Part shown: piece by piece, positions 8,743 to 42,666 of the stretch
Layout of the letters: the number at the start of each line of letters is the position of its first letter
How positions within the stretch are numbered: position 1 is the stretch's first letter
The notes under the pieces: generated by a model
Database searches by the model: none
What the model saw: only the letters and a program-made list of their open reading frames with translations
What the model was told of the DNA's origin: nothing
Assembly (NCBI GenBank): GCA_015039365.1
Contig: WION01000304.1
Coordinates: forward strand, 1-62,574
Direction: 5' to 3'
Length of the DNA stretch: 62,574 bases
Origin: Amanita rubescens
Taxonomy: Eukaryota > Basidiomycota > Agaricomycetes > Agaricales > Amanitaceae
Made by a program: the position numbers and the translations under genes

Positions 8743-9333
8743 CCATACGGTATCATCACTTTGCCTTGCAACCACCACTGTGATAACTAGCGTGTGTCTT
8801 GTACATCTTCTATACCTGGCTTGATGTGATTGCTTTACAGGATGTTTGTACTGCAGCTTCTGAACACTTTGCACTCCATGAAGATAGTGCTGCTACTAGT
8901 ATCAGCAGCAGCCTTGATATTACAAGGACAACTCCTTTGCTTTCCTGTGAGTCTTACTGTTTGCAATTATGCAATTGAGCATTTATTGTATCCAAGGTGT
9001 TGTATGTCCCTACTATACCTGCACATTCTGCATCTGGTGTGCTGTTCCAAAATGGGTTGATATTGCTAAATGGTATGTCTGTGTGCACATCACAGCCCCA
9101 AATATTATTTAAATTAAGTTCACATATTTCATGTGCTTAGCAATGGCAATGGTTATAACCATTCTCTCTTGTACTTATTGTTGCTGGAATTTTGAGCACA
9201 TCATGGATTGTTTCTATGGTATTGATGCTGGTGTGCCATTCTTTTTTCATTTGCAGATAATAAATTCTTATAAACTACTTTGCTTCTCAATATCAGACAT
9301 GTGCTTGGCATTACACTGGATACTGCATCTGAA

Positions 9334-9735
9334 TGCCTTTGTGGTGTGTGTGAATGCCTTTATGGTATATATGAATGCCCTGGTGGTGTATGTGAATGCC
9401 TTTATGGTATATATGAATGCCCTGGTGGTGTATGTGAATGCCTTTATGGTATATATGAATGCCCTGGCAGTGTATCTGAAAGCCTTTATGGTATATATGA
9501 ATGCCCAAGTTTATCTGAAAGCCTTTATGGTATATATGAATGCCCTGGTGGTGTATCTGAATGCCTTTATGGTATATATGAATACCCTGGTGTATCTGAA
9601 TGCCTTCATGGTATATATGAATGCCCTAGTGTATCTGAATACCTTTATGGTATATATGAATGCCCTGGCAGTGTATCTGAATGCCTTTATGGTATATATT
9701 AATTCCCTGATGGTGTATATGAATGCCATTATGGA
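9334..9735. repeat. 39-bp minisatellite in the Helitron 5' region, about 10 copies
   Basis: The unit TGAATGCCTTTATGGTATA followed by TATGAATGCCCTGGTGGTGTA repeats head to tail, with some units shortened by 6-9 bp. The length changes keep a multiple of three, so two plus frames stay open across it, giving NAFMVYMNALVVYV-type repeats. Whether it is ever translated is unclear. Confidence 0.85.
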
Positions 9736-9738
9736 TAT

Positions 9739-11202: not shown

Positions 11203-14200
11203 ATCATGCTGATTATGAGGATGTTTTAATCTCAACTGCTAATCTTGATGAGTATCCAGAAGATATGCCTCCTGTAAGCATTGAGTATAAACAAATGATG
11301 CACAATAAAACTCCTGAAGGGACTAGTGTCCATGATATGGAAGAAGAGGATGGAACTACAGATGGGCAATGTGCCTTCACTGTCCATGGTCTTACAGGTG
11401 AAGAATTTAACATCATGTCAATTAACACTGTCAAAGTAAAATCATTACAACATTTAAATTCACAAGGTAAATTTCTAGCAATAGGTCATAGTAAAGAACC
11501 AGAATCCATTTGGAATAATCCTCAGCTATATCCACAAATGTTTCCTTGGCTGTTCCCCTATGGTCTTGGAGGGGTAGGCACTGTTGGTGGCTTGTCTGAT
11601 AAGGAGCACAAAAAATGGCTTTTAATGTACCATGACAAAAGGTTTCAGACAGATCAAGATTTCCCCTTCATAGCTTTCAGTCATGAGCAGATAAAAACTG
11701 CATCTTCCCAAAGTTTTCTCTTGGCTGATAAAGCTGTATTTAATGATATCAAGGAGAGAATACTAACTCTAGATAATAATGTTCTACAATCATTATTAGA
11801 ACGCATGAGTAAACATGAGCTTGTGAAGCCAGAAACAGAAGAAGAAGAGAAGTGCTTTAAATTAATTAGAGATCTTGATCATGTAGCAGGTCCAGTAAAA
11901 GGATCAAATACTAGTAAAAAATGGATGAGAAATGAGATTTGGTCTTTGATATATCATAGGGGAGCTCCATTCTGGTACATAACAATCTCACCTGCTGATG
12001 TGAAGCATCCCCTTTGCATCTACTTTGCTGATAATAAAGAAAAGTTTGAAGTTGAAATATTACCATATGATGAACGCATGAGATTGATATGCAGAAATCC
12101 AGTAGCAGGAGCACGCTTTTTTGACTTCCTTGTGAAATTATTTATCTCTGATATTTTAGGATTTGATTCAGAACATGCAGGTCTATATGGTGATGCAAAT
12201 GCATACTATGGCACTGTTGAACAGCAGGGAAGATTAACACTTCATCTGCATATGCTCATATGGCTCAGAGGAAATTTAACACCACAAGAGATGAGAGAAA
12301 AAATCTTAGATCAAAACTCTGACTGGAGGAAACACTTGATATCCTGGCTTGAAAGTTGCCATATTGGAGAGTTCATGACAGGCACCCAAAATGAGGTGCT
12401 TGCAAGTGTAGCTGAACATTCCAAGCAGGAATCATATAAAGACCCTACTGAAACATTGCCACAACAACCACCACCTTTGTGTGACTCTAAGCATCCTCAA
12501 AATAAGTGCTGTAGCAAATGTGATGATTTAACTAAATGGTGGAAGTATTTTGACAATGTTGTTGATGACCTTATCAGCAAGTCTAACATACATAATTGTG
12601 AAAGGGGTACCAACAAAGATGGTTCTGTGAGCAAGAAATATGCATCATGTAAAGACAACAAATATGGTAAATGTAAAGCTAGATTCCCACGTCCAATCTT
12701 TGAACAAACAGAAGTTGATCCTGAAACAGGTGGATTAACAATAAAAAAATTTGAAGCTTGGATCAACTTTTTCACTCCTGTTCTCACATATATCATGCGT
12801 TGCAATACTGATGTGACATGCATGTGGTCAGGTACTGCATTGAAGGCTGTTATTGTATATGTTACTGATTACATCACCAAAACTGGTCTCAAGACACATG
12901 TTGTGTTTGAAGCAATAAGAAGTGTATTTGACAAACATACTGACATAATAGGTAGCTCATTATCTGAGAGAGAGAAAGCCAGGAAGCTTATAAACAAGAT
13001 TGTGAATGCTCTTTCCACAAAAACAGAAATGGGTGCACCTATGGTTTGCATGTACCTTCTGGGCAATCCAGATCATTACACTAATCATAAATTTATCCCT
13101 TTTTACTGGCATGCATTTGTACTTGAGGCCCAAAGACCTTGGAAGGAAGTTGACCCATCAACACATGCAGACAAAGTTACTTTAATCAGAACAAAGAAAC
13201 AAATTATTGGCTTTTCTCCTGTACATGATTACATCTACAGACCTTCAGAGTTTGACAATATGAATTTGTATCAATGGATACTCCAATGTGAACGCAGAAA
13301 ATATAGATTGACATATGGAAAGCATGGGTGCAATCCTGAACCTTTAGATGCAATGGAATTCACTGATTTGAATTTACATGAAGATAGTAAAGCCAATGAT
13401 GACTATTCAGACATCACAATGGACAATGATTCATCAGAATTTAGTGATGGTGAAGAACCAGCCATTAGTGACATCAGTGAAACTGAAACTTCTGATCCAG
13501 CTGATCTCAGTGATACTGACATTTTAGTGAGAGATATTCCCAGTAATCTCCCAAAGAATATGTATAGATTTAAAAATAAGCATCCTCTTTATGAAACACA
13601 CATAACTGTTCTTAAACCTTTGGAACCAACTACAGTTGTCAATTTTATAGGACGCATCCTTCCTAGATGTGATCAGGGTGACAGAGAATTTTATTGCCTC
13701 ACAATGTTGGCACTGTTCAAACCATGGCGCACAGGCTTTGATCTAAAGATAAAGACAAAATCTTGGGATGAAACATTTAATGAGCATGAATTCACAAAAA
13801 GAGAAAAACAACTGATGAGGAATTTCAACATCAAGTATGAATGTTTTGATGCACGTGATGATTTCCGAGCTCAAATGAAGGCAGGTGCCATTCCTAATGA
13901 GTGGCCTATCAATTGTTTTGATACCAGTTATGAAGATGATGAATTAAACTCAGATCATCATCCATATGTTGACCCTAACAGTGGTGACTTACTACAAGAG
14001 CCAGATAATGAAAAACTATGCAAATCTGAATTGAACCGACAAAAAGAAGCTAAAGAAATCAAAGATGTCTTGCAAAGAACTGGGTGGCTGGATGAAACAC
14101 CTGAAATTACCCCTTATTCTGATTTTTGTCAAGTCAGTAAAACCTGTCACTTGCCTCCTGCATCATGGAAAGCAATATTGCAAGAAAAAAAGAAAACTGT

Positions 14201-17045
14201 GTTTGAGAGCAGAGTAAGGAACACATTCAACTCAAAGCAAGCCCCCCTTGAATCATTCCCACCAAATGTTGTGAGAGTTACTGACAAGGCTTATTTAGAA
14301 AAGAAATTTCATACTACAAAGCATAATAACATGATAGATACTATATCCCAAGAGTACAGTCTCAATGATGAACAAGATAGAGCATTTAAAATCATAGCTA
14401 ACCATGTTGTCATGCCAAATTCAGAGCCCTTGAAGATGTATATAGGTGGAATGGGTGGAACTGGAAAATCCCGGGTACTTAGTGCTGTATCAAGCTTCTT
14501 TGAAAGGAGGGGTGAGGCACACAGATTTATAATAACTGCACCAACTGGAAGTGCTGCAGCATTGCTGTCAGGCTCAACATATCATTCTATCCTTGGAATA
14601 AATGATATGAGCAATGAAGCTCAGGCTACCAAAACATTGATGCGGGTGCGAACCAACTTACTGGGAGTAGATTATATTTTTTTGGATGAAGTTTCAATGC
14701 TATCTTGTCATGATATATATAAGATCAGTGCACAGTTATGCAAAGTAATGAATAAACCAACTGTACCATTTGGAGGCTTCAATATGCTCTTTGCTGGTGA
14801 CTTTGGACAGCTACCACCACCTCTTGGCAATGAAAGTGTTGCATTGTATAGCAGAACTGTTGGCCAGTCAGGAGCATGGAAAAAAGCACAGGAAATGGCA
14901 ATTGGTAGAGCATTATGGCATCAAGTTAATACTGTTGTTATCTTGAGACAAAATATGAGACAAAGAACTCAGTCTAAAGATGATGATAAACTGCGCAAGG
15001 CTTTAGTGAATATGAGACATAAGGATTGCACTCTTGCAGACATACAGTTCCTCAGATCACTTATTACATCTTCACTTCCTGGTAAACCTTCCATAACTGA
15101 CCCTAACTTCAGATTTGTATCAATAATAACTGCCAAGAATGCACAAAAGGATGAAATAAATAAACTTGGATGCCAATTATTTGCACAACACACTGGACAG
15201 CAATTAGTTGACTTTTATTCAGAAGATACCTTGAAGCACTCTGAAGGCATTGAAAAAAGAAGAAAAGCAAGCAAAAAAAGGGTAACCAAGCTTAATATTG
15301 CACATCAAAAAATATTATGGGACTTACCACATTCAAGTGCAGATAAGCCTGTTCCTGGTAAGCTTTCAATTTGCATGGGTCTCCCTGTCATGATCAAATG
15401 TAATGTAGCTACTGAGCTATGTATTACAAATGGACAGGAAGCAACCATTGTTGGTTGGCAATCAACAGTAGGACAACATAATCAGCAAATGTTAGATGTC
15501 CTGTTTGTGAAATTGAAAGCACCACCAAAGTCTATACAAATAGATGGACTACCAGAGAATGTTGTACCACTGACAAGATCCACAGTATTTATTACATGTA
15601 AATTACCAGATGGAAGCACAGTATCTGTCTCCAGATCTCAAGTTGAAGTTTTACCAAACTTTGCTATGACAGACTTTGCATCACAGGGGAAGACAAGACC
15701 AAATAACCCAGTAGACCTGAACAATTGCAGATCCCATCAAGCATACTATACTGTTCTTTCTCGAAGTTCTACAGCAAATGGCACAATTATTCTACAAGGC
15801 TTTGATCCAAAGATGATAACAGGAAGAGCTTCAGGTGCATTAAGGCAGGAATACCGTGACCTCGAACTGCTTGATGAAATCACAAAATTGCGCTACTTAG
15901 GTCAACTATCAAGTTCAATAAATGGAGACAGGCGTAATGCATTAATTCATGAATTTAGAATGGAGAAGGGCATGGATTATGTACCAAGCACAGTGCATTC
16001 ATCCATTAAATGGGGCAAAAATGATCCTATGCTTGATCCTATAGCAGATGACTTGCTGTGGAAGGTTGTGACAAAAGAGTCAATACCTAATTCATCATCT
16101 AAAATGGACATATCTAATTCCATAGCTTTTGCTCCATCCAAAAGCAACAAGAGAAAAGAAATCACACAAGGGGAAGAACATAGAGCAAAGATCTGTAAGA
16201 CAAGTTCAACTGCTAGAAGTAATGGTGATAATGCAAACATTAATGTGCAGTCTTTGACTCCAATAGGGACTACATGGGACCAAAATAGCTGTGCTTATGA
16301 TGCTATATTGTGCATAATACATGCAGTCTGGTCCAGTAATAAATACTTCTACACTGACTTATTTAGAAACATGAATGATATTTTAGGCAACTTGGCTTCC
16401 AACTTTGTAAAGCATGCATCAGGAATCAAGACTTTGGAATCCACAAGAGATGATATAAGACGCTATTTACATCAACTTCGTCCATCCCATTTCAGATGGG
16501 GGCAATTTACTTCAATATCAAGACTAATTGAATATCTACTAACAATACCAACCACTGCCATCCAAAGTGATTTTGTGTGCAAGAATGATCACATTTCAAG
16601 AACAAGAAGAACCAACAATACCTGCTGTCTACTTACAATAGGGTCAACAATGTCTAGATCTATTGCAGGTTGGATGCAAGATCTGAAAGAGGAATCCAAT
16701 TTAACTTGTACCTCCTGCCCAGAGAAGATGGCAATTATTCATCAATTTCTTCTTCCATTACCATTTATAGCCATTGATTTTTCAACCCAGCAGCTTCACA
16801 TTGATCACAGTTTCTGTATATATGTTAACAATGAAGAATTTAAATATGAACTACGAGGAGTTGTGTATTATGGAAATTCACATTTTACATCACGTGTTGT
16901 AACCAATAATGGCATGATATGGTTTCATGATGGGTTAGCCACTTGCCAATCCTTATTGTATGAAGGCACAATTCAAAACTTTGCAGACTCATTAAGCTTA
17001 TGCAGGGGCAAAGAAGCCTTGGCAGTTATTTATGTTAAAATTTAA
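11190..17045 (+). CDS. Helitron Rep/PIF1-like helicase with C-terminal cysteine-protease-like domain
   Basis: This 1951-aa protein should nick and unwind DNA for rolling-circle transposition. The order is: linker continuing DUF6570 (1-30); Helitron N-like domain with YPQMFPWLFPYGLGG (about 110); HUH-type Rep with the two metal-binding His in LHLHMLIW (about 350) and the Tyr region YVTDYITKTGLKTHV (about 556); a variable acidic segment (about 730-790); PIF1-type helicase with Walker A GGMGGTGKS (about 1085), TAPTGSAAALL, a DEVS Walker-B-like site and SVSRSQVEVLP; then, beyond the usual helicase end, a domain from about 1690. That domain has WDQNSCAYDAI (candidate nucleophile Cys about 1700) and GNSHFTSRVV...WFHDG (candidate His about 1896 and Asp), the Cys-first, His-last order of USP-type deubiquitinases. 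OTU domains are known in plant and animal Helitrons; this one does not show the OTU signature. The ORF is uninterrupted and AT-rich. Confidence 0.9.
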   Translation: MVDLNHADYEDVLISTANLDEYPEDMPPVSIEYKQMMHNKTPEGTSVHDMEEEDGTTDGQCAFTVHGLTGEEFNIMSINTVKVKSLQHLNSQGKFLAIGHSKEPESIWNNPQLYPQMFPWLFPYGLGGVGTVGGLSDKEHKKWLLMYHDKRFQTDQDFPFIAFSHEQIKTASSQSFLLADKAVFNDIKERILTLDNNVLQSLLERMSKHELVKPETEEEEKCFKLIRDLDHVAGPVKGSNTSKKWMRNEIWSLIYHRGAPFWYITISPADVKHPLCIYFADNKEKFEVEILPYDERMRLICRNPVAGARFFDFLVKLFISDILGFDSEHAGLYGDANAYYGTVEQQGRLTLHLHMLIWLRGNLTPQEMREKILDQNSDWRKHLISWLESCHIGEFMTGTQNEVLASVAEHSKQESYKDPTETLPQQPPPLCDSKHPQNKCCSKCDDLTKWWKYFDNVVDDLISKSNIHNCERGTNKDGSVSKKYASCKDNKYGKCKARFPRPIFEQTEVDPETGGLTIKKFEAWINFFTPVLTYIMRCNTDVTCMWSGTALKAVIVYVTDYITKTGLKTHVVFEAIRSVFDKHTDIIGSSLSEREKARKLINKIVNALSTKTEMGAPMVCMYLLGNPDHYTNHKFIPFYWHAFVLEAQRPWKEVDPSTHADKVTLIRTKKQIIGFSPVHDYIYRPSEFDNMNLYQWILQCERRKYRLTYGKHGCNPEPLDAMEFTDLNLHEDSKANDDYSDITMDNDSSEFSDGEEPAISDISETETSDPADLSDTDILVRDIPSNLPKNMYRFKNKHPLYETHITVLKPLEPTTVVNFIGRILPRCDQGDREFYCLTMLALFKPWRTGFDLKIKTKSWDETFNEHEFTKREKQLMRNFNIKYECFDARDDFRAQMKAGAIPNEWPINCFDTSYEDDELNSDHHPYVDPNSGDLLQEPDNEKLCKSELNRQKEAKEIKDVLQRTGWLDETPEITPYSDFCQVSKTCHLPPASWKAILQEKKKTVFESRVRNTFNSKQAPLESFPPNVVRVTDKAYLEKKFHTTKHNNMIDTISQEYSLNDEQDRAFKIIANHVVMPNSEPLKMYIGGMGGTGKSRVLSAVSSFFERRGEAHRFIITAPTGSAAALLSGSTYHSILGINDMSNEAQATKTLMRVRTNLLGVDYIFLDEVSMLSCHDIYKISAQLCKVMNKPTVPFGGFNMLFAGDFGQLPPPLGNESVALYSRTVGQSGAWKKAQEMAIGRALWHQVNTVVILRQNMRQRTQSKDDDKLRKALVNMRHKDCTLADIQFLRSLITSSLPGKPSITDPNFRFVSIITAKNAQKDEINKLGCQLFAQHTGQQLVDFYSEDTLKHSEGIEKRRKASKKRVTKLNIAHQKILWDLPHSSADKPVPGKLSICMGLPVMIKCNVATELCITNGQEATIVGWQSTVGQHNQQMLDVLFVKLKAPPKSIQIDGLPENVVPLTRSTVFITCKLPDGSTVSVSRSQVEVLPNFAMTDFASQGKTRPNNPVDLNNCRSHQAYYTVLSRSSTANGTIILQGFDPKMITGRASGALRQEYRDLELLDEITKLRYLGQLSSSINGDRRNALIHEFRMEKGMDYVPSTVHSSIKWGKNDPMLDPIADDLLWKVVTKESIPNSSSKMDISNSIAFAPSKSNKRKEITQGEEHRAKICKTSSTARSNGDNANINVQSLTPIGTTWDQNSCAYDAILCIIHAVWSSNKYFYTDLFRNMNDILGNLASNFVKHASGIKTLESTRDDIRRYLHQLRPSHFRWGQFTSISRLIEYLLTIPTTAIQSDFVCKNDHISRTRRTNNTCCLLTIGSTMSRSIAGWMQDLKEESNLTCTSCPEKMAIIHQFLLPLPFIAIDFSTQQLHIDHSFCIYVNNEEFKYELRGVVYYGNSHFTSRVVTNNGMIWFHDGLATCQSLLYEGTIQNFADSLSLCRGKEALAVIYVKI

Positions 17046-20924: not shown

Positions 20925-22417
20925 TCACCGCCTGCCAGTGCTACGACCATAGCCAACTTGCAGGGCATCGAGCTCAGCTTCGAGCTGCTTGATCGCGCTG
21001 TGAGCGAGCTCAAGGTCCTTGTTCAGACGGTCACGCTCAGCGATAAGCTTTTGGTGAAACGATAAAAGTCAGCATTTATAAAGGATATCAAGGGCTAGAA
21101 GGGCCGGCTGACCTGTTGCTCCCAATGTCTAAATCTGGCCTCCTCAGCCTTGACCTGCTCAGTGAACTTCCTGCGCAGCTGTTCTTCCTCCTCCTTAAAC
21201 TTGGGGTTCTCAAGCCGCTTGACTTTGGGTTCGCCGAACTTGCGTGTCTCCATTTGTTGCTGCCTATAGTTTTCATAGTGGAGCTCCTCCGTTGTTGAGA
21301 TCAAGTCCAACATATGCGTTCTGATGAGGAGAGACCGCAACTTCTTGAAGTCACAGTGATTTTCGTTCTCAACTGCGATGAAACATGAACACAGGGTCGC
21401 GGCATCAACCGAATCAAATACCTTCTGCAACACCCCAAATATACTCTCGGCCTTTGACGGTACGACCGTCGAGCGTCTTGACGTCCTCGGTTGATCCAAT
21501 AATGGAGAAGGGGATGGCATCAATCAAGATGCGGGCGTGTTCAGCACCGGCCTCGTCGTCGGTCTCAATGGGCGGGGTATAGATACGGATACCCTGAGCC
21601 GTAATAACGTCACGAATCTAGCATAGACACGTCAGGCTTGCATAAACAAAGCACGGAACTCCTAACGTACGCGCTTCTTGAAAGTTTGCAAATCACGTTG
21701 CGTGAGAGTATCAGCCTTTGCGATGACGGGAATAAGGTTGACCCGGTTCCCTAGGCGTTTCATAATTTCAATGTCTAGAGGCTTAAGGCTAATATTCCGA
21801 ACACGACGGCGTTAGAAGAGAAGACTGTAAAATGATTTTGATGGTACATACGTGTGCCCTGTGGGGCGGATGAAGTACAGGCAAGCGTGGACACGCAAAT
21901 CCGTTTTTTCGCTCCTCTGAGGCTGCTGCTCCTGACGCATATAGGCCTCATGCTGGTCGTCAATGAACTCCACGATAGGGAGCCAAGAGTCTCGATTGTT
22001 GACGTAGTCGCCGAATCCAGGAGTGTCAATGACCGTGAGCTTCACCTTGAACTGCTTCTCTTCAAGCTCTGCCTTGATTATTTCAACCTCGGTGAGCTTG
22101 TCAAGTTGCTTGTTGTGACGCTTGGTGTAGTTCTTGGCGGGAGAGAGTTCGGTTGAAAAGAGGGTATTGATGAGCGTGGTCTTTCCCAGCCCGGACTCGC
22201 CTGAGTTCTCGCGTCAGAACGACGTGTGGAATGAAAGAGAAAAAAGGAGGACTCACCAACAACCATGATGGTGAAATGAGCCCCCCGCTTTGCGACGATT
22301 TTGTGCCTCTAAAGTGGGAATATGAGTGTTTGTAGAAAGTAGGACGGGTTAGTGAGTGACCTGGTTAGGCAGGTTGGCAATGCCAATGCCGTCTGTGATG
22401 GGAGCGGGGGAAGCCAT
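20925..22417 (-). CDS. CDC12: Septin, Cdc12 type
   Basis: A GTP-binding cytoskeletal protein that polymerises with other septins at the bud neck and at septation sites. Seven exons fit GT-AG rules: 22361-22417, 22257-22308, 21852-22200, 21671-21788, 21422-21617, 21114-21372 and 20925-21047. The N-terminus has [20 protein letters not shown], the Cdc12/AspC signature. G1 is GESGLGKT, G3 DTPGFG, G4 AKAD; the septin unique element lies at [20 protein letters not shown]-terminal coiled coil follows ([40 protein letters not shown]). All key motifs and splice phases are intact. It faces the GTPase gene at 23.0 kb tail to head; there is no functional link between the two. Confidence 0.93.
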
Positions 22418-23034: not shown

Positions 23035-26000
23035 TTATGTAGGTCTATCCACTAGTAAATCCACGCCAAAAGCTAGGACTGGTACCCCGTGAATTACGAG
23101 GCATATATTATTATCATATACACTAGTACTGAATGACTCATGGTTGGGATCAAGGCCAAGCTCAAGGAGGTAGTACAATGCTGGGTTGAGTATCTGGAGA
23201 TTCACAACATACACCAATTCCTTAGCTATTGTGAGATTGATATGAGACTATCATTACATTTAAGTGTTCAATTGACATATACTTTCAGGAGAAAACTGGG
23301 TCTTTGTTATACATGACATTAATCTATATCCAAACATCCAAATAAATATGAGTTCAATGCAAAGGTAATACACCACCTGAATTACATACCATCAATGTGA
23401 GTCACCTGCCAATAGAGTAAGGTGACCAAATCTTGATAACCAGAGTGCATAGAGTCAAGAGTAATATCACTCTTCAGCTTCTGAACATAGCCTCTTTGCT
23501 TGTATTGATCCGAGGCTTCTATGACTGATGGCAGAAATGGTTTATTGATCCAAAAGGATAGCTTGGCAATGATAATAATGGCTTGAGAGATTAAACATAA
23601 ATACATTGAATGAAAGGAGTAATTTACAAACTAAAACTTGGCAACTAGTAGGCTTTTGCAATAGCATGAGCTGTGCACTGCCCTCCAAAAAAATGAAAAA
23701 TACCTTGAGTGCAAAGTTATCTGGCTCTTGCATGTCTCCAAACATGGAGGAAAGTCCATGCTGCACTGTATGAGAAAGAGTAAAACATCCCAAGTTTCAT
23801 CAAACCTACAGACTAGCATGCAAATCAATATGAAAATCAATACATTATGTACTAGCAGTGCTCACCTGGAAATCCAGGAAAGTCATATAAGTGAGAGAAA
23901 TGATCATATGACAAGGCAGTGGGTAAGGTGAAATGAAATCTTACAATCTATGAGAATGTAAAATGAAGACATGGAAAAAATATGTCAAGACACTCACTTT
24001 CTGATATGTATATGTATGTAAATATCAATCATTCATGAGTTGAGTATGCTGAGAATGGAGGTCAGAAATATGTGATGTCACTCACAGACTGTTGCCCATA
24101 GGAAAAGATGTGAAACTGCCTTTCACAAAATGTGCAATGCAACTCACAGCCTGTTGGTCATAGGAAAAAATGTGATGAGACTGCCTTTCATAAAATAGCA
24201 ATGTCACTCACAACCTGTTGATTATAGGAAAAGATATGATGTGAAACTGCCTTTCACAAAATGTGCAATGTCTCTCACAAGCTGTTGGTTATAGGAAAAG
24301 ATGTGATGAGACTGCCTTTTCACAAAATGTGCAATGTCACTCACAGTCTGTCAGTCATAGGAAAAGATGTGATGAGACTGCTGGGCTTTCACAAAATGTG
24401 TAATGTCACTCACTTGCTGTTGGTCATAGGAAAAGATGTGATGAGGCTGCCTTTGACAAAATGCCACTCACTTGCTGTTTGTGATAGGAAAAGATGTGAT
24501 GAGACTGGGTTTCACAGAATGTGCAATGTCACTCACAAGCTGTTTGTGATAGGAAAAGATGTGATGAGACTGCCTTTCACAAGACATGCAATGTCACTCA
24601 CTTCCTGTTGGTCATAGGAAAAGATGTGATAAGACTGCCTTTCACAAAATGTGTAATGTCACTCACAAGCTGTTTGTGATAAGAAAAGATGTGATGAGGA
24701 CTACCTTTCACAAAATGTGCAATGTCACTCACTTCCTATTGGTCATAGGAAAAGATGTGATGAGACTGCCTTTCACAAAATGTGAAATGTCACTCACAAT
24801 CTGTTGGTCATAGGAAAAGATGTGATGAGACTGCCTTTCACAAATGCACAATGTCACTCACAGCCTGTTGAAGATGTGCTGAGACTGGCTTTCACAAAAT
24901 GTACAATGTCACTCACTTGCTGTTGGTCATAGGAAAAGATGTGATGAGACTGCCTTTCACAAAATGTGCAATGTCACTCACCAGCTGATGTTCATAGGAA
25001 AAGATGTGATGAGACTGCCTCTCACAAAATGTGCAATGTCACTCACAACCTGTTGGTCATAGGAAAAGATGTAATGAGACTACCTTTCACAAAATGTTCA
25101 ATGATACTCACTTTCTGTTGGCCATAGGAAAAGATGTGATGAGACTGCCTTTCACAAACTTGATGTGCAATGTCACTCACAAGCTGTTTGTGATAGGAAA
25201 AGATGTGATGAGACTGCCTTTCATGAAATGTGCATTGAATATCACTCACTTGCTGTCCGAAGTCATAGGAAAAGATGTGTTGAGACTGCCTTTCATGAAA
25301 TGTGCATTGAATATCACTCACAGCCTGTCAGTCATAGGAAAAGATGTGATGAGACTGGCTTTCACAAAATGTGCAATGTCACTCACTTGCTGTTTGTTGA
25401 TAGGAAAAGATGTGATAAGACTACTGGGCTTTTACAAAATGTGCAATGTCACTCACTTGCTGTTGGTCATAGGAAAAGATGTGATAAGACTGCCTTTTAC
25501 AAAATGTGCAATGTCACTCACTTCCTGTTGGTCATAGGAAAAGATGTGATGAGACTGCCTTTCACAAAATGTTCAATGTCACTCACTTTCTGTTGGTCAT
25601 AGGAAAAGTTGTGATGAGACTGCCTTTCACAAAATGTGTAATTATTAATGTGACTCACAAGCTGTTGATCATAGGAAAAGATGTGATGAGACTGCCCATC
25701 ACAAAATGTGCAATGTCACCACTCACTTGCTGTTGGTCAAAGGAAAAGATGTGATGAGACTGCTTTTCACAAAATGTGCAATGTCACTCACAACCTGTTG
25801 GTCATGGGGGAAGATGTGATGAGGCTGTCTTTCACAAAATGTGCAATGTCACTCACTTGCTATTTGTGATAGCAAAAGATGTGATGAGACTGGCTTTCAC
25901 AAAATGTGCAATGTCACTCACTCGCTGTTGGTTGTAGGAAAATATGTGATGAGACTGGCTTTCACAAAATGTGCAATGTCACTCACAACCTGTTGGTCAT

Positions 26001-29000
26001 GGGAAAAGATGCGATGAGACTGGCTTTCACAAAATGTGCAATGTCACTCACAGCCTGTCAATCATAGGAAAAGATGCGATGAGACTGGCTTTCACAAAAT
26101 TTGCAATGTCACTCACTTCCTGTTGAAGATGTGCTGAGACTGGCTTTCACAAAATGTACTGAATGTCACTCACTTGCTGTTGGTCATAGGAACAGATGTG
26201 ATGAGACTGGCTTTCATGGAATGTGCAATGTCACTCACATATTGCTAAGTTGGTCATAGAAAAAGAGGTGACAAGACTGCCATTCAAAAAGTGTGCAATG
26301 TCACTCACATATTGCTGTTGGTCATAGGAAGAGAGGTGATGAGACTGACTTTCACAAAATGTGCAATGTCACTCACAGATTGCTGTTGGTCATAGAAAAA
26401 GAGGTGATGAGACTGACTTTCACAAAATGTGCAATATCACTCACTGTCTGTTGGTCATGACGAAAGATGTGATGAGACTGCCTTTCACAAAATGTGCAAT
26501 GTCACTCACAAGCTGTTTCTGGAAAAGATGTGATGAGACTGCCTTTCAAAAAATGTGCAATGTCACTCACAGGCTGTTTGTGATAGGAAAAGATGTGATG
26601 AGACTGCCATTTGGCAAAATGTGCAATGTCACTCACAGCCTGTCAGTCATAGGAAAAGATGTGATGAGACTGCCTTTCAAAAAATGTGCAATGTCACTCA
26701 CTTGCTGTTGGTCATAGGAAAAGATGTGGTAAGACTGGCTTTCACAAAATGTGCATTGAATGTCACTCACAAGCTGTTTGTGATAGGAAAAAATGTGATG
26801 AAACTGCCTTTCACAAAGTGTGCAATGTCACTCACTTGCTGTTGATCATAGGAAAAGATGTGATGAGGCTGGTTTTCAACAAAATGTGCAATGTCACTCA
26901 CTTGCTGTTTGTGATAGGAAAAGATTTGACTAGACTATTTTTTATAAAATGTGCAATGTCACTCACTTCCTGCTGGTCATAGGAAAGGATGTGATGTGAG
27001 ACTATCTTTCACAAAACATGCAATGTCACTCTCACTTTCTGTTGTTCATAGGGAAAGACGTGATGAGGCTGGGTTTCACAAAATGTGCAATGTCACTCAC
27101 TTCCTGTTGGTCATAGGAAAAGATGTGATGAGACTGGCTTTCACACAATGTGCTATGTCACTCACAAGCTGTTGGTCATAGGAAAGGATTTGATGAGAAT
27201 GCCTTTCACAAAATGTGCAATGTCACTCACAAGCTGTTGGTTATAGGAAAAGATGTGATGAGACTGCCTTTCACAAAATGTGCAATGTCACTCACAAGCT
27301 GTTTGTGATAGGAAAAGATGTGATGAGACTGGAAATGTGAAATGTCACTCACTTGCTGTTGGTCAGAAAAAGATGTGATGAGACTGGCTTTCACAAAATG
27401 TGCAATGTCACTCACTTTCTGTTGGTCATAGGAAAACATGTGATGAGACTGGCTTTCACAAAATGTCTCACTCACTTGCTATTTATGATAGGAAAAATGT
27501 GATGAAATAGCCTTTCACAAAATGTGCAATGTCATTCACCAGCTGACATTCATAGGAAAAGATGTGATAAGGCTGGTTTTCACAATGTCAGTGGTCACTC
27601 ACTTGCTGTTGGTCATAGGAAAAGATGTGATGAGACTGCCTTTCACAAAACTGCAATGTCACTCACAAGCTGTAGGTCAGAAAAGATGTGATGAGACTGG
27701 CTTTCACAAAATTGCAATGTCACTCACAAGCTGTTGGTCATAGGAAAAGATGATGAGACTGGCTTTCACAAAATGTACAATGTCACTCACTTGCTGTTGG
27801 GCATAGGAAAAGATGTGATGAGACTGCCTTTCACAAAATGTGCCATGTCACTCACCAGCTGATGTTAGGAAAAGATGTGATGAGACTGGCTTTCACAAAA
27901 TGTGCAATGTCACTCACTCGCTGTTGGTCATAGGAGAAGAGGTGATGAGATTGGCTTTCACAAAATGTGCAATGTCACTCACTTGCTTTTGGTCATAGGA
28001 AAAGATGTGATGAGACTGCCTTTCACAAAATGTGTAATTTGACTCACAAGCTGTTTGTAGTAGGAAAAGATATGATGAGACTGCCTTTTCACAAAATGTG
28101 CAATGTCACTCACAGCCTGTTGGTCATAGGAAAAGATGTGATGAGGCTGGGTTTCACAAAATGTGCAATGTCACTCACTTGCTGTTGGTCATAGGAAAAG
28201 ATGTGATGAGACTGGCTTTCACAACATGTGCAATGTCACTCACTTCCTGTTGGTCATGGCAAAAGATGTGATGAGACTGCCTTTCACAAAATGTGCAATG
28301 TCACTTGCTTCCTGTTGATCATGGAAAAGTTGCAATGAGACTGCCTTTCACAAATTGTGCAATGTCACTCACAGATTGCTGTTTGTGATAGGAAAAGATG
28401 TAATGAGACTGCCTTTCACAAAGTGTGCAATGTCACTCACAGATTGCTGTTGGTCATAGGAAAAGATGTGATGAAACTGCCTTTCACAAATTATGCAATG
28501 TCACTTGCTTTCTGTTAGTCATAGAAAAAGATGTGATGAGACTGCTGCCATTTACACAATCTGCAATGACACTTACTGTCTGTTGGTCATGGGCAAAAAG
28601 CTGTGATGAGACTGTCTTTCATAAAATTTGCAATGCCCTCACTCCCTATCAACCATAGGCATTGAATGTGTGATGAGACTGCATTTCAGGCAAATGTTAG
28701 TGTTACTCACATCCTGTCAGTTGCAGGGAAAAATGTATTGAAATGCTTTTCAGAAATATTTGCAATGTTACTTACATACTATTGGCCAAAGTTTTGATAC
28801 GGTCACCTGTTGAACCACTAAATTGGCACTAACCCACTACATTCATAGGAATACATAGATGTGATTCCACTACTCTTCACAAACTTGCAAACATGCACCA
28901 CTCACCATCTGTAGAACAAAATAAATTCTCCTGTAGCAGAGTGGCCAGCATTACTCACTGCCTTTTAGAATGGAATAAGCATCATGAGTTGGGAAAAAGA

Positions 29001-31189
29001 AACCAATTCCACCAACCTTCTTTGGTGAATTATTTCATATGATGAATTCACTATGTCAAAAAAGTATCACATACATCCTATTTGTTTAATAGCTTGTAAA
29101 GAGGCTTTGAAAAGGAGAAATCCTTACTGTCTGTTGTTTGGGGCAAGATGTAATGTTTATAAGCAGACAGCAAGAAAATGTCACCTACTTGCTGTTATCA
29201 ATTCAATGAAATTTGTTGAGATTCTCTTTCACATAACAGCATGTCACCAACTTTCTGTTGTTCATTGAGTTCAAATATCTCATAATCTGCACAAATATCA
29301 ATGTTGCTTACTTTCTTTAAGCAGGTCACAGATGTTGTGTGAGGCAGTGTTGTATTACTTACTCCCTGTCCATGAGAGATCAGGTTGCCAGGTCTGCTTA
29401 CAATGATAGATTAACTCACTTTCTATTGATGCATCATAGGTCAAAATATCAAAAATCAAAATTGATTGATGTCACCACTCACTTCCTGTAGAGAGTCATG
29501 ACTTCTGATGACAAAGTTGGAAGCATTACTCACAAACTGTTGTCATGAGACAATAAATCAGACCAATGCTAGTTCAATGTCACTTACCAGCTGATATCAA
29601 CTTAACATCAGATTCTGCCCCCAAGAATATGATCAGAGCTAACCTGCACTTCACTCAGTTGTTCATTAGCCATCTAAAGTATAAGTAATCTTGTTTTCAT
29701 GTTAAGGCATTGCAGTGCTACTTACCTCCAGACAAACATATTGCAAGCATTTATCATTCCACATGAAGGCCACCTACCTCTGACCTGTCCACCTGTTGCC
29801 ATTTAACTTTCATATGTTTATGTGCAGTTTAACAACAATGCATACCCAGAAATGTGGAAATTTTGAAATAACTATGAGAATGACATCATTCCATGTCTCA
29901 TGTTCATGTTTCAGAACATGTCTGAGCCATGTCAATGTCAGTAAGTGGCATTTGAATGTGACCCTCACTGAAGTGCAGATTTAACTGAAAGGTCCAGATT
30001 ATTCATTTGTGTTGAAACAAATAGCTGATGCATGCTGTCATCATCTATTGCATTAGCAGTTTGCTGAGTTAATTCAGCACAATTCTTCTCTGGTAAATCC
30101 ATGTCTATGAAGCAACATTATTCCCATTTTTCAGGAGGAAATACTTGTTATCACCTTCTAATAGCACATATGCCTTGGGAGGATATTTGGCATTCAAAAC
30201 TTTAGGAAGATAAGTATTCTGAAAAGTGGTTTCAGCAATTTCCCTGGCTCTCTCCCACTTATCTTCATGATCATTTGCATCAGTCAAGTTGACAAATTCA
30301 CTGGCTATTTGACCATCAAATTTAGTGAATATAACCACCAAAGGAACTGTAAAGGAAATATTTGCTAGTCAGTACACTGGAGATTAGCACTTAGTAGATT
30401 TGGTGGCAATTTGGGCAATGGAAAGGTCAATAATCTGTCCAAAACCAACAAGATGAGATATGAATTCATTAGGATTTACCTCTGCCTGTCCCTTTATTAA
30501 AGAATTCAAGTTCTGCAGGTAGAATGGGACGAGGGCTGTCCATGGGTATACAGTACCTACAGGAAGCCAGGTTATTGCAGAGTTGGTCATGTAAAGGGAT
30601 AAAGCAAGATACCAAATTGCATGCAGCTGATTCTTCAGCTCAGCTTCTGCAGACTTCTTTTCAATGAACTTCCAAGCCATCTCCAATTCCACAGTTGAAC
30701 CAGATTCAAAACCCTTGGAGTCATGGAAGACAAAGTTGCTTCCAGGGTATGTAATTTGATGTTCAATATCATGCAGGCCTCTCTGTTATCATTGCATGTA
30801 TGATGTGAATGGGTATACAGTATATATACATTATTATCTGACTCACCTCAAGTGATGGCATCAAATGCATCATAGACCATTTAAGCTGATTACCTGCAAA
30901 TAACTCAGCATTCAAAGGAAGCACAAAACTGAGTCTGGCTTACCATACTTGTTGTATATGGAGGGCTTTGTCCCCATTGCTACACCACAAACCTTCTCAA
31001 GGATGGTTGTCTTGCCTGCATTAGCCCTCCCAATGACAAGGATGCAAAAGTGTGGGCACAGATAATGTTCCTTGAGCATTTGAATATGTGTCTCAACTGG
31101 ATCTGATGATACACATCAGTCAAGAATTCACAATGCTGAGACACATAAGTTAGCCCACTCAAAGAAGGTGCACCAGTGGTAGCTGCCAT
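23035..31189 (-). CDS. P-loop GTPase-domain protein with about 88 one- or two-codon exons
   Basis: The 5' exons encode a G domain: 31174-31189, 30944-31102 (G1 GRANAGKTT), 30847-30893, 30613-30782 (G3 region FHDSKGFESGS), 30480-30556, 30155-30346 (G4-like FTKFDG), 29969-30104, then a 7-nt exon (29778-29784) and a 30-nt exon (29644-29673, MANEQLSEVQ). About 88 exons of 3 or 6 nt follow between 29.59 and 23.94 kb. The 3' exons are 23704-23760 (HGLSSMFGDMQEPDNFALK), 23390-23480 and 23035-23225, ending at a TAA. Phases agree at every larger junction: 16 nt ends phase 1, 136 nt ends phase 2, and the 7-nt exon restores phase 0 for the whole array and the first 3' exon. Predicted protein is about 485 aa: GTPase, coiled-coil-like middle, helical C-terminus. 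The family is common in agarics and its role is unknown. The locus is AT-rich and almost CpG-free. Transcription is not shown. Confidence 0.8.
23945..29586 (-). repeat. Array of intron-plus-codon units (about 65 bp each, about 88 units)
   Basis: On the minus strand a unit reads GTGAGTGACATTGCAC...CTTTTCCTATGACCAACAG plus a codon, then the next GTGAGT. The usual unit is 62 nt of intron and 3 nt of exon. Codon positions include 24086-24088 TCT, 24599-24601 GAA, 25108-25110 AAA, 26767-26769 CTT, 27533-27535 CTG, 28895-28897 ATG and 29359-29361 GGA. Five units carry 6 nt (CAATAT twice near 26.23 and 26.31 kb; CAATCT near 26.37, 28.37 and 28.43 kb). From about 24.08 to 28.7 kb the units are nearly identical; from 28.7 to 29.6 kb intron sequences have diverged but the AG-codon-GT arrangement persists. 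Donors are mostly GTGAGT, with GTAAGT, GTATGT and two GC donors (near 28.30 and 28.50 kb). Confidence 0.88.
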
Positions 31190-37427: not shown

Positions 37428-40400
37428 CTATGGTGTATAACAGTGAACCCAACCAAGACCTATCATGGCCTGACAAAAGTCAACAGTGGCAAATCCAGAA
37501 CGAGAAATGATGAGGATGTTGAAAGGTGAAAGCAATCCAACTTCTTGTGGCACCCACATAAGGCAGTTTTGCCCCTGAGAAGAAATAATCCAATTTCTGT
37601 TTGTCAGATTCCAAGGAAAGTACTGATAACAAATCATCAGCACATCCCACTTGCAGACTTGTCATCAGAGCTCACAATCTGCATCCCATCACTCAAAAAC
37701 GCGACCGAATTGACCCGCTCGGTGTGGCCCTTCAGCTCCTTCAGCTCCACACCTGTCGACGCATCCCACACTCGCACAGAGTTGTCATACGAGCCAGACA
37801 CAATCCGCGTCCCATCGCTCGAAAACGCGACCGAAAAGACCAACTCGGTGTGGCCCTTCAGCTCCTTCAGCTTCACACCTGTCGACGCATCCCACACCCG
37901 CACAGACTTGTCATCCGAGCCAGACACAATCCGCGTCCCATCGCTCGAAAACGCGACCGAATTGACCCACCCGGTGCGGCCCTTCAGCTCCTTCAGCTCC
38001 ACACCTGTCGACGCATCCCACACCCGCACAGACTTGTCATCCGAGCCAGACACAATCCGCGTCCCATCGCTCGAAAACGCGACCGAAATGACCCACCCAG
38101 TGTGGCCCTTCAGCTCCTTCAGCTCCACACCTGTCGACGCATCCCACACCCGCACAGAGTTGTCATACGAGCCAGACACAATCCGCGTCCCATCGCTCGA
38201 AAACGCGACCGAAATTGACCGACCCGGTGTGGCCCTTCAGCTCCTTCAGCTCCACACCTGTCGACGCATCACACACCCGCACAGAGCTTGTCAGACGAGC
38301 CAGACACAATCCGCGTCCCATCGCTCGAAAACGCGACCGAATTGACCCGACTCGGTGTGGCCCTTCAGCTCCTTCAACTCCACACCTGTCGACGCATCCC
38401 ACACCCGCACAGACTTGTCAGACGAGCCAGACACAATCCGCGTCCCATCGCTCGAAAACGCGACCGAATTTGACCGACCCGGTGTGGCCCTTCAGCTCCT
38501 TCAGCTCCACACCTGTCGACGCATCCCACACCCGCACAGACTTGTCAGCCGAGCCAGACACAATCCGCGTCCCATCGCTCGAAAACGCGACCGATTTGAC
38601 CGACCCGGTGTGGCCCTTCAGCTCCTTCAGCTCCACACCTGTCGACGCATCCCACACCCGCACAGACTTGTCATCCGAGCCAGACACAATCCGCGTCCCA
38701 TCGCTCGAAAACGCGACCGAATTGACCGACCCGGTGTGGCCCTTTCAGCTCCTTCAACTCCACACCTGTCGACGCATCCCACACCCGCACAGACTTGTCA
38801 TACGAGCCAGACACAATCCGCGTCCCATCGCTCGAAAACGCGACCGAATGACCCGACCCGGTGTGGCCTTTCAGCTCCTTCAGCTCCACACCTGTCGACG
38901 CATCCCACACCCGCACAGACTTGTCAAACGAGCCAGACACAATCCGCGTCCCATCGCTCGAAAACGCGACCGAAAAGACCCACCCGGTGTGGCCCTTCAG
39001 CTCCTTCAGCTCCACACCTGTCGACGCATCCCACACCCGCACAGACTTGTCAATACGAGCCAGACACAATCCGCGTCCCATCGCTCGAAAACGCGACCGA
39101 AAAGACCGACTCGGTGTGGCCCTTCAGCTCCTTCAATTCCACACCTGTCGACGCATCCCACACCCGCACAGACTTGTCATCCGAGCCAGACACAATCCGC
39201 GTCCCATCGCTCGAAAACGCGACCGAAAAGACCGACTCGGTGTGGCCCTTCAGCTCCTTCAGCTCCACATCTGTCGACGTATCCCACACCCGCACAGAGT
39301 TGTCAGACGAGCCAGACACAATCCGCGTCCCATCGCTCGAAAACGCGACCGAATTGACCTTCCCGGTGTGGCCCTTCAGCTCCTTCAGCTCCACACCTGT
39401 CGACGCATCCCACACCCGCACAGACTTGTCATCCGAGCCAGACACAATCCGCGTCCCATCGCTCGAAAACGCGACCGATCTGACCCAGTTGGTGTGGCCC
39501 TTCAGCTCCTTCAGCTCCACACCTGTCGACGCATCCCACACCCACACAGAGCCGTCATCCGAGCCAGACACAATCCGCGTGCTGTCCCCTGAAAATGCAA
39601 CAGCCAAGATTATTCCCCCAGCTGGTACCGTCATCAATGGCAAATCAATACTACTGCCTTTGGTATGCGTAAAGACAGGGATGCGAGTGAATTGGTTTTT
39701 CCACTTCCGAGAGAGACTAGTTTCCCGCAACCATGTTGCCAACGCCGAGATGTACAGATGCGGTGTCGAATCGGCAGCCGGGCTCCCAGCAAAATAGGTA
39801 GCAAAATTGGCAGCTTCACGAAGGTCACGTGCCAATTCCGAATAACTGTTCCCGCACTGACCGACACCGTTAGTTCTTGCAGGACAACTCAAGCCTTGCA
39901 ATCCATACCTTCAATACCCACTGACGTGCATGCTGAAGCATTGGGGTACACTGATTGCATAATCCAAGTAAATTCATACCCTCGATCCAGAACAGGACAC
40001 GAATTTGGAGGAACTCCGAAATGCAGCAACGAAGATTATCAGTATTGATCGCTGACTGGGGTGACGGCAAGTGGTGAGTCCAGTGGCGAGATGAGTACCT
40101 AAGAACATCATTGATGTTCTGGTCAACATGCTTAGACAGCGCAGCGGCGTTGTCGCGGTCGAACAGGAAGGATGAAGTTATATCACCCATGTTGAATCGC
40201 AAACCGGACTTCATGACGCCGAAGCAAGATTCACCAAGAAGATTGTGGTGGGCTGGTTCGTTACACGAAAACGAAAAGTTCTTCTCACCAACGCTGAAGT
40301 TTGACCGGGCTGGATCAAAAATGAAGTCGGGGAACGAGGCATGGTACCAAAAAACCCGATCGCCTTGGGTATATAGCACGGCATGGAGATTGTCCAGAAC

Positions 40401-42666
40401 GGCCCGCGCGGCTTTATTATCATTGTCTGCGATGAGTGCAGCAACGGTAGAGGTGGATGTGCGTTCAGCCGTACATAGGTAGGTATATAGGATACGCAAT
40501 CGGCGAGTCAAGAGCTTTCCTTTGAACTTTGAAAAGGCGTCGTGCATAATTTGCCGGTATAATATGTCAATTAATAATGTAGCATCACTTGCAGAAGTCG
40601 GTTCGTATGATTTGGAAAGGAGATCATCAAGCATCTCGATCTGCTCTGCAATGGAGATCGAGTCATCCGGGGTCAAGTACCTCACCACCGTGGCAGCGTA
40701 GATGAACAGACCGCCTGCCTGTTGTCCAACCTTGGCCAGCTTTGGATTGCCGGCAAGCATTGGCAGCTTGATGTTCAAGTACGTCTTGATGTCTGACTTC
40801 GCCTTTTCTACCGGCACATCCTGTAGACGACAGACAGCCTCGGACACGAAGGACTGGCAGAGTGTAACAATTTTAGGATCTGAACGACTCGTCACGAGAA
40901 ACTTCAAGCCTCTGAGATCAAATTCGTCGATTGCTGTAAGTAGGTCACGCAGAAATGCTGACCCTCCGTTGTCCATGATCTCGTCGAGAGCATCGATGAC
41001 AATGAGGTAGGGTGGTAGTTTAGGGGAGCGTGTCGCTTCGGACAGTTGCCAAGGTCCAAGAAGAAGACTCTTTATCTGGCAGGAGACGTCGTGATTGACT
41101 GCGTCGAATTTGTCGGCAACATGCAAAGCGTTTGCATACGATTTGCATTTACGAGCAAGCTGGTAGGCGATGGTGGGAAGGATACGGGTCTGGCCTTGCG
41201 TTTCTTGGTATTGTCGTGAGCAGAAAAAGTTGCCGCCCAAGACGGTGAGCTCGTTGGCTTCACCATCCTTCTCGAAACGTTTGGCTATGGTATACGCAAT
41301 TGTGGTTTTGCCGGAGCCAGCTGGACCAGTCAGCCAGAAGACACGCGGGCTTCCAGATGAGCGATCATTAGCCCATTTGATAATATCTCCCAATATCTTG
41401 ACACGCGTTCCGTCCGTGCACATTTCACGCTTCACGCCCTGCTCTTCGAGAACAGTTTTGTGGTCAGCCTTCTCGGAGGGACGCAGACGTTCCAGGGCCG
41501 CTTTCTGTTCAATCAATCAGTGACGGTCACAAGCCAGGAAACCGAGATACTTGCCTTGATGTCGCCGTGTATCATGTTCGCCGTTTTCTGGATGCTGTTC
41601 GACATTTCGAACTCGGAACGAACAATGAGTCAATACATAAGCTTAGATGAATATAAGAGCATGCACCTGGAAAGACATCGTAGCATCATTTACGCATTCA
41701 AAAATCTTCCTGATCTTCTTCTGGTATTCTTCATGGTCTAGCGTCTGTGCGACCAGCGATTTACTGGCGAGGTCCTTCAACTTCTTCATTTCTTCCTGAA
41801 GGATCCTAGACGGTGACGTGCTCGTCATGACATACCACTTAGCGCAAGGAGGACGACGTACTGTTTGAGTCTCTCCATCTCCTGTTCGGCAGCCTCCGGA
41901 ATACCAATAGTTATAGTTCTCTCCACAGCTAGGATTCTATTTGCCGTTTCTACGAGACGTTGTTCAAGCTCGTCCTTGTTGTCTCCGACCGCCTAAGATA
42001 ATAGTCAGTCTGTGCTCAAGATACAGAGACGACGACCCACATCTTTTATCTCGATGATAGCCTTGGCAATGGAGAACGCCACCTTGACTGGATTAGTACC
42101 GACACAGTCCGGCACCTTCTTGAGAAGCATTTGCATGAACCGCGAAGCTACTCCAAGACCTTCTGTTGTAGTCGCCTTCCAATCCGAGACTGGCGTTTGA
42201 GAATGGGTCGACGCTGGTTCTTCATTACGAGTCGGATTTCGCGGCCGTGCTCGAAGTCAATTCTCAGACGCGACGACCGAGCGTACTGCAATCCCACCTT
42301 GAACAGCGGAACCCCGCAGATCCGGAATGCTTGATGAAAGATGTTCTACTGACTGGAAGGGGGTGGTAGGACCTGGATGGTAGGCTGAGTCCGGTAGATC
42401 TGTGAGGTAGAAATCCATACCCTGATTCAAGGTAGCATCGGTGCCTGGAGAGTGTTTGAGTCGGATAAAACTAAGATGGGACCAATATACTTACTTGAAC
42501 CCGTCGGCCCTGCACTAGGATCGTGAGCGCCAGATGCGTAGGAGATGGAAACCCGAGTTGAATTCGACGAGCTAGCCGAGGCGCTGGCTGATTTGTGCCT
42601 CTTAATAAGGGGCTTTAGGAGCGTCTTGAATATCGTTCGTGCAGTGCCTTTACGTCGGTCGGCCAT
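37428..42666 (-). pseudogene. NACHT-WD40 NOD-like protein (NWD type), frame-disrupted
   Basis: NACHT-WD40 proteins are fungal STAND NTPases; some act in non-self recognition. The start at 42666 (MADRRKGTARTIFKTLLKPL) leads through short exons with an N-terminal helical domain (LGVASRFMQMLLKKVPDCV; DELEQRLVETANRILAVERT; LKDLASKSLVAQTLDHEEY) to the NACHT exon 39909-41516: Walker A GPAGSGKTT, Walker B LIVIDALDE, sensor-like FLVTSRSDP. An intron at 39857-39908 joins it in phase to HLYISALATWL and 16 WD40 units of 42 aa (about 39.6-37.65 kb; typical GSDDKSVRVWDASTGVELK). A tail (SPFNILIISRSGFATVDF...WVHCYTP) ends at 37428. Net-neutral +1 changes at five units and one more near 37650 break the frame, so it is either a recent pseudogene or carries sequencing indels. 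Confidence 0.85.
37660..39610 (-). repeat. Sixteen 126-bp WD40-encoding repeats, nearly identical
   Basis: The marker ATCCGCGTCCCATCGCTCGA (plus strand) recurs about every 126 bp from 37805 to 39449, with variant end copies at about 37680 and 39575. Spacings are 126 except 128 (38183 to 38311) and 127 (38311-38438, 38438-38565, 38691-38818, 38944-39071). Most differences cluster at a few codons, mainly the (S/R/F)SVAF-preceding GW/ESV/GSV residues and the SDD/SYD/SAD position, the surface turns of WD40 blades. Confidence 0.9.

Follow-up and report, generated by a model that had tools for sequence, protein, structure and literature searches.

Can a protein segment be encoded one codon at a time, with each codon standing alone between two introns? 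The question is raised by a stretch of 62,574 nucleotides from the basidiomycete Amanita rubescens (assembly GCA_015039365.1, contig WION01000304.1, positions 1 to 62,574), referred to here as the window, which is one contig of an assembly of 75.7 Mb. A gene on its minus strand, recognizable as a GTPase gene by its G-domain motifs, leads into a tandem array in which an acceptor, three bases, a donor, and an intron of about 60 bases follow one another repeatedly. The best reading of this array is that of a coding minisatellite whose constant part is the intron and whose cargo is a single codon, likely rewritten in frame by recombination.

The Window Array

The array was parsed with a dynamic-programming splice-chain parser whose score depends on nothing but splice sites and intron length and which permits exons of 1–24 nt with no preference for any length. 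It finds 89 consecutive short exons on the minus strand from 29590 to 23945, in good agreement with the count of about 88 units in the initial annotation. In the raw parse 80 of these exons are 3 nt long, six are 6 nt, two are 7 nt, and one is 9 nt. Both 7-nt exons resolve into a triplet, AAA or GAA, and a GC donor (GCAAGT) after it, and in one 6-nt exon and the 9-nt exon a second AG immediately precedes the final triplet. When GC donors and doubled acceptors are read in this way, the array comprises 84 one-codon and 5 two-codon exons (CAATCT three times and CAATAT twice), which bears out the five 6-nt exons first described; the total is 282 nt, or 94 codons, and no stop occurs among them in phase 0.

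Controls with the same parser give nothing comparable. Thirty dinucleotide shuffles of the array stretch yield at most three exons of 3 nt, with a longest run of two, and four other stretches of the window, taken on both strands, yield at most two. Nor do the units resemble stwintrons, since every one of them has a complete donor and acceptor of its own, 3 nt apart.

Two parts can be distinguished. The leading part (28643–29590) is made of 17 one-codon exons, L F E K G K K Q T D K A M W Y D G, and these first 17 or so units have diverged from one another in their introns. The variable part (23945–28642) holds 72 units, 67 with one codon and 5 with two, whose introns are mostly about 62 nt long and alike; it terminates in AAA ATT (K I). 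Tandem Repeats Finder reports the homogeneous portion at 24460–28643, with a period of 65 and 64 copies.

Evidence That the Triplets Are Read as Codons

The initial annotation had proposed a genuine coding stretch of one-codon exons, and as a prediction from the DNA this is supported: the exons keep their 3-nt length in family members whose introns have diverged, stops in phase 0 are nearly absent, the leading codons stay largely the same across loci as the introns around them drift, and proteins from other contigs of the Joint Genome Institute (JGI) carry the chain joined to the same preceding exons. In what follows W denotes the window locus, and L-numbers denote other loci of the same genome.

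Stops were counted at 25 loci. Among 1250 array codons read in phase 0 there is a single stop, in L026, where base frequencies predict 76. Phase by phase, the counts are 1 of 1316 in phase 0, 5 of 1291 in phase 1, and 141 of 1291 in phase 2. The leading triplets, which are largely the same from locus to locus, typically read WFEQGKKETDREIKYDG.

Further evidence comes from proteins in which the chain is already joined. Each of P0021, P0044, P0036, and P0121 is encoded by one uninterrupted frame on a JGI contig 1.1–1.9 kb long. Introns that would lie between the covered exons are missing from these contigs, and complementary DNA (cDNA) is therefore their probable source. A query of 60 residues, built from the letters of the window only and consisting of 43 residues of the upstream exons and the first 17 one-codon exons, was compared with a set of 121 proteins. 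It matches P0044 over all 60 residues, with 41 identities (68%, E-value 5e-23), and P0021 over 59 residues (64%, E-value 7e-22). The match is ungapped across the array border, and thus the codon chain exists joined as a protein. Matches of the same query to P0036, P0121, and P0064 also reach well into the array part; those to P0019 and similar deposited models stop at the border.

Leading chains from several loci give the same picture. Compared without gaps in phase 0 against nine chosen proteins, W agrees with P0044 at 11 of 17 residues, L012 with P0021 at 14, L033 with P0036 at 12, and L034 with P0036 at 13, the L034 chain being taken from its second exon (the first is not parsed as 3 nt) with one 7-nt exon read as its first triplet. 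Shuffled queries reach at most 8–9 of 17, and wrong phases at most 6. A composite tail query matches P0021 over 83% of its 81 residues at 82% identity (E-value 2.4e-31); the query includes a dozen residues of P0044, which leaves the P0021 figure unaffected but inflates that for P0044 (83% over 100%), and the latter is not used. In P0121 both ends of the array are present in one joined protein, INWFEEAKQDADDERDFF...DKIFSVFFSMFGG.

P0044 itself is likely derived from a related species. Its array peptide begins at residue 253, and among the matches listed in the genome of the window none extends past residue 242 or exceeds 89% identity. A contiguous copy of the array peptide in the same genome was sought with a degenerate pattern allowing two mismatches, which found none, and none appears among the matches listed in two protein searches.

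A Family of Arrays

The window gene is one of many. The genome contains at least 273 matches to the G-domain exons and at least 150 to the last exon, and all 26 other family loci that were fetched carry one-codon-exon arrays. Twenty of these were chosen by similarity to the array and six (L029–L034) by their G-domain and C-terminal exons; the array is present in all six that were picked without regard to array similarity. Loci L001–L008, which overlap later, longer ones, and L035, which overlaps L022, were left uncounted. L018, L027, and possibly others are truncated by contig ends, and the core finder set a wrong start for L027. Across all 27 loci the chains span about 20 to 90 one-codon exons.

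The parsed set of 25 loci consists of the window, the 20 chosen by array similarity, and four of the six others (L029–L032). Its 1317 array exons include 1250 of exactly 3 nt and 1279 whose length is divisible by three, so that at 25 loci many exons far below normal size are maintained in frame. Of the 38 that are not multiples of three, 17 belong to L021 and six are 7-nt forms explained by a GC donor. Constancy of exon length does not depend on likeness of the introns. In L033 and L034, with 49 and 52 exons of 3 nt, the introns are visibly unlike from unit to unit, and in the old array of L031, whose exons are still 3 nt, mutual intron identity is about 60% compared with 50% for shuffled introns.

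A genome-wide search for acceptor/donor junctions, with a gap of 0–12 nt permitted, returned 1063, compared with none for the reversed pattern. Of 100 junctions listed, 45 of them from a single array (C13), the gap is exactly 3 nt in 95, 2 nt in three, 4 nt in one, and 6 nt in one. A separate observation is that numerous members of the family come as two or three equally scoring copies, each on its own contig. Such sets may represent haplotypes that the assembly did not merge, and would be useful for comparing alleles.

Constant Introns and Variable Codons

In young arrays the introns are nearly invariant and the codons are hypervariable. Units of equal length are numerous enough in 19 of 25 arrays (six had too few), and in these intron diversity is 0.000–0.104 per site and mean exon diversity is 0.30–0.69. 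One 62-nt intron recurs letter for letter in 344 copies at 19 of the 25 loci, between different codons, and in 352 copies genome-wide; the triplets flanking an array intron often differ. By the usual description of a minisatellite, tandem near-identical units homogenized along the whole array, 19 arrays belong to that class, and old ones such as L031 are not homogeneous.

Pairs of closely related copies display the contrast directly. Between L020 and L022 the leading introns differ at 3 of 973 bases and the variable-part introns at 0 of 620, while 6 of 10 variable codons differ. Between L012 and L020 the corresponding figures are 16 of 972 and 2 of 1364 for the introns and 17 of 22 for the codons, and between L010 and L013, 17 of 28 variable codons have changed; all of these codon counts come from an aligner that favors equal codons.

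Codon use in the arrays is distinctive as well, with approximately one codon per amino acid and a third base that is A in 59% and T in 33%. In two ordinary exons of the same genes the third base is A or T in 58%, and other codons for Arg, Gly, and Lys are commoner. CGA accounts for 163 of 182 Arg codons in array triplets versus 1 of 20 in the two ordinary exons, and GGA for 111 of 115 Gly codons versus 18 of 114. Old arrays use AGA beside CGA (8 and 17 occurrences). Part of this bias may come from avoiding NAG, since that triplet would supply an additional acceptor, and from avoiding C in front of the donor. The window chain is rich in Q, L, E, and K, and a coiled coil was considered for it and rejected: hydrophobic periodicity does not rise above that of shuffled sequences in 8 of 9 arrays tested.

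Proposed Mechanism and Alternatives

We consider it probable that these genes form a GTPase family in which 3-nt exons alternate with introns of about 62 nt, the predicted spliced product being a continuous peptide, likely a variable loop and likely diversified by recombination. The cassette would be one intron plus one codon. The spliceosome would remove each array intron and so join the codons into a continuous peptide. Unequal exchange or gene conversion within the identical introns may copy, remove, or swap whole cassettes, a step that is less certain than splicing; the frame would be kept because the joints of exchange lie in sequence that is spliced away. Stops would be removed by selection. 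Old arrays such as that of the window would drift, their introns diverging while exon length and frame persist. The broader proposal, that single-codon cassettes let DNA recombination edit a hypervariable segment residue by residue while the spliceosome erases the joints, probably in the service of non-self recognition, seems to us about evenly balanced; that a variable loop on a fold of the dynamin-like or immunity-related type serves such recognition is a guess.

Individual arrays hold hints of recombination. L014 contains a run of units with the new codons CGA CTA CTA and one 4-nt exon, CTTC; in this same run two rare intron variants shared by the sister loci L013 and L015 are gone, and six outside it are kept. 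Elsewhere CTA is found mainly in L011 (13 of 19), which has CGA CTA CTA. In L019 a segment of about 17 units is present twice, rare introns included.

Several observations weigh against this reading or narrow it. That the spliceosome removes every intron of the window array is something we infer from sequence, and the joined proteins come from other JGI contigs, which are only probably cDNA. The 22 deposited models that were read, from A. rubescens and A. brunnescens, all end ahead of the array peptide, 15 of them at SALQ, SALR, SALW, or SAIQ and the other seven within a few dozen residues. Odd exon lengths occur amid good introns: 17 exons of 1, 2, or 4 nt stand among near-perfect introns in L021 (G000 C749), and another five, of 2 or 4 nt, are found in L011. 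These could be assembly faults or frame breaks, or, for L021, signs of a decaying gene. Helical periodicity is absent from 8 of 9 variable peptides tested, L013 being the exception (p 0.02). Variability is also not general. L017 shows no codon change from L018 or L019 in aligned units, L019 being one unit longer, and between W and L009 exon changes (10 of 183) and changes in variable-part introns (210 of 3792) proceed at the same rate, 5.5% each, so that the window array is not hypervariable now. Finally, codon runs shared by unrelated arrays average 2.52 in 224 pairs compared with 2.45 after shuffling, with four pairs at p 0.02 or less, which is about the level of chance, and an excess of identity between neighboring codons (p below 0.05) appears in only 3 of 21 arrays. 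With shared runs and neighbor identity both at this level, neither large-block exchange nor simple duplication of single units is the main source of codons.

If blocks are not exchanged between unrelated arrays, then small tracts or a mutator acting on triplets must do much of the work, and the latter leads to an unlikely alternative: the one-codon exons are real, and their codons are altered by a mutator aimed at the exon triplets rather than by cassette recombination. It would fit the lack of codon blocks common to unrelated arrays, the C-N-A form of most L011 codons, which differ at the second base, and the existence of near-identical copies that differ greatly in codons with almost no change in introns. 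A mutator would however be expected to generate stops, and unless these are removed by selection the single stop among 1250 codons tells against it; in L014, moreover, one run of units shows changes in codons and in rare intron variants together.

It is rather improbable that the codons are conserved by purifying selection while concerted evolution homogenizes the introns. Identical introns would be accounted for, and some pairs do behave in this manner, W and L009 keeping 54 of 61 aligned variable codons and L017 keeping all aligned codons with L018 and L019. Yet copies with leading introns only 0.3–1.7% diverged mostly differ in their variable codons (L020/L022, L012/L020, and L010/L013).

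We regard as very improbable the notion that the variable stretch was once contiguous and that an introner-like element later inserted one 62-nt intron between all of its codons. The exact repetition of one intron between different codons at many loci speaks for it, but insertion would not make codon use in the array so sharply unlike that of the two ordinary exons unless selection followed; 344 of the 352 exact copies lie within parsed arrays, and the same layout is found in old arrays with diverged introns.

Still harder to credit is a non-coding satellite inside one large intron, its splice-like motifs copied with the repeat and nothing in it translated. The units are indeed tandem and partly homogeneous, and deposited models end before the array; against this stand the 3-nt exon length kept where introns are barely alike, the occurrence of 1 stop in 1250 codons rather than 76, and the same peptide contiguous with the upstream exons in other proteins. 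Least likely of all is an artefact of assembly or polishing, with identical introns as a consensus effect and codons as noise. It would suit the 1-, 2-, and 4-nt exons between near-perfect introns in L021, but noise would not avoid stops in one phase, L017 has no aligned codon that differs in L018 or L019, which lie on other contigs (though these are possibly haplotype copies), and diverged arrays are not homogeneous.

The Host Gene and Its Surroundings

The array of predicted one-codon exons is embedded in a gene of otherwise ordinary structure on the minus strand. Among deposited proteins the highest identity to it, 95%, is that of P0001 from A. rubescens. Translation of 30153–31079 gives the G-domain exons, with the P-loop GRANAGKTT, DSKGFE, and TKFDG and with ordinary introns between them; a protein search places two G-domain exons at 30606–30788 and 30153–30350. 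There follow the exon DMDLPEKNCAELTQQ...SALQ (29969–30104), at which most of the deposited models that were read end, the exon HVLKHEHETWNDVILIVISKFPHFW (29846–29921), which has similar peptides in P0019, P0021, and P0044, a 15-nt exon, VDRSE (29778–29792), and the last ordinary exon ahead of the array, the 30-nt MANEQLSEVQ (29644–29673), whose counterpart in P0044 is contiguous with the array peptide (MANKQLSEAQWFEHGKK).

Beyond the array lies an additional one-codon exon, TCT (23810–23812), reached after a zero-length AG|GT site at 23866/23865 in which an acceptor abuts a donor. Such a site at the corresponding place, past the last array exon and ahead of the following one-codon exon, was found by a pattern scan in six older loci (the window, L009, and L029–L032) and by eye in L033; it was not found in L034, and the scan pattern matched no other locus. 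It may be a recursive-splicing point. The gene then continues with the exon HGLSSMFGDMQEPDNFALK (23704–23760), of which FSMFG is also present in P0121, a 25-nt exon, PTSCQVLV (23628–23652), corresponding to STCQIIVA in P0121, and the final exon, SIIIIAKLSFWINKPF... (23382–23581), which runs to the stop TAA.

A fold search with P0064 predicts a G domain followed by a C-terminal helical domain. Foldseek ranks BDLP first among the matches and then GM4951 and Irga6/IIGP1, and VIA-align places GM4951 and Irga6 first. The resemblance of P0064 to dynamin-like and immunity-related GTPases is one of predicted fold only; in Pfam searches with four relatives of the host GTPase no family scored above its own cut-off. 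No GIMAP- or Toc34-type GTPase is among the P0064 fold matches listed, which proves nothing.

The window has other features as well. On the minus strand a NACHT domain stands beside some 15 near-identical 126-bp repeats encoding WD40 repeats (37637–41516), an NLR-like gene with high internal repeat identity, and an open frame at 21098–21523 encodes the C-terminal part of a septin domain. On the plus strand a Helitron (9703–17045) carries Helitron_like_N and a PIF1 helicase, with DUF6570 in the preceding frame, and is preceded by a 21/42-bp tandem repeat at 9330–9750. A search of a phage collection gave no match.

Comparison with Known Systems

In the literature searched, outside of which lie most subscription papers and all preprints, we found neither a chain of one-codon exons nor a coding repeat with an intron as its constant part. 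Related strategies are nevertheless known. The HYP effectors of potato cyst nematodes also have a hypervariable domain between conserved flanks whose units are reshuffled without loss of frame, but this domain is transcribed as a single exon and its unit is a motif of 5–6 residues (PMC11228951). In the arrays, by contrast, a unit carries a single codon, an intron supplies the constant part, and the variable domain is not confined to one exon, each array codon lying between its own acceptor and donor.

Tiny exons as such have precedents. The bicycle and megacycle genes of aphids evolve rapidly and contain many of them; megacycle has more than 100 microexons for a product of about 2000 residues, which implies a mean exon length in the tens of bases, and the accessible part of that account makes no mention of one-codon exons or of near-identical tandem introns (PMC9168663). 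Exons of 1 nt are reported in Arabidopsis (PMC4674806) and in Fusarium CYP621A (PMC12940212), and a 3-bp micro-exon in Drosophila homothorax (PMC7392893); as far as the accessible text of these reports goes, each is single in its gene and not part of a chain. Introners and introner-like elements provide many near-identical introns per genome, and are described as inserted in many genes (PMC9860276, PMC4457414). Nearly all exact copies of the array intron, by contrast, are in tandem within one gene family, and the exact copies, the only ones counted, do not show dispersal over many unrelated genes.

If the window gene is spliced as predicted, its transcript would require about 100 splicing events with 3-nt exons, and would test how introns are recognized when almost no exon is present. 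A skipped unit would cost one residue only. The arrangement would offer a new answer to the problem of varying a protein rapidly without frameshifts, and it suggests a reason why gene predictors halt short of the arrays.

Further parallels are the repeats of TAL effectors and the variant repeats of minisatellites, in both of which a constant part accompanies a small variable part and the units are shuffled by recombination. The constant part is translated in TAL effectors and non-coding in minisatellites. In the arrays described here it is instead an intron, and only the variable residue would therefore remain in the protein.

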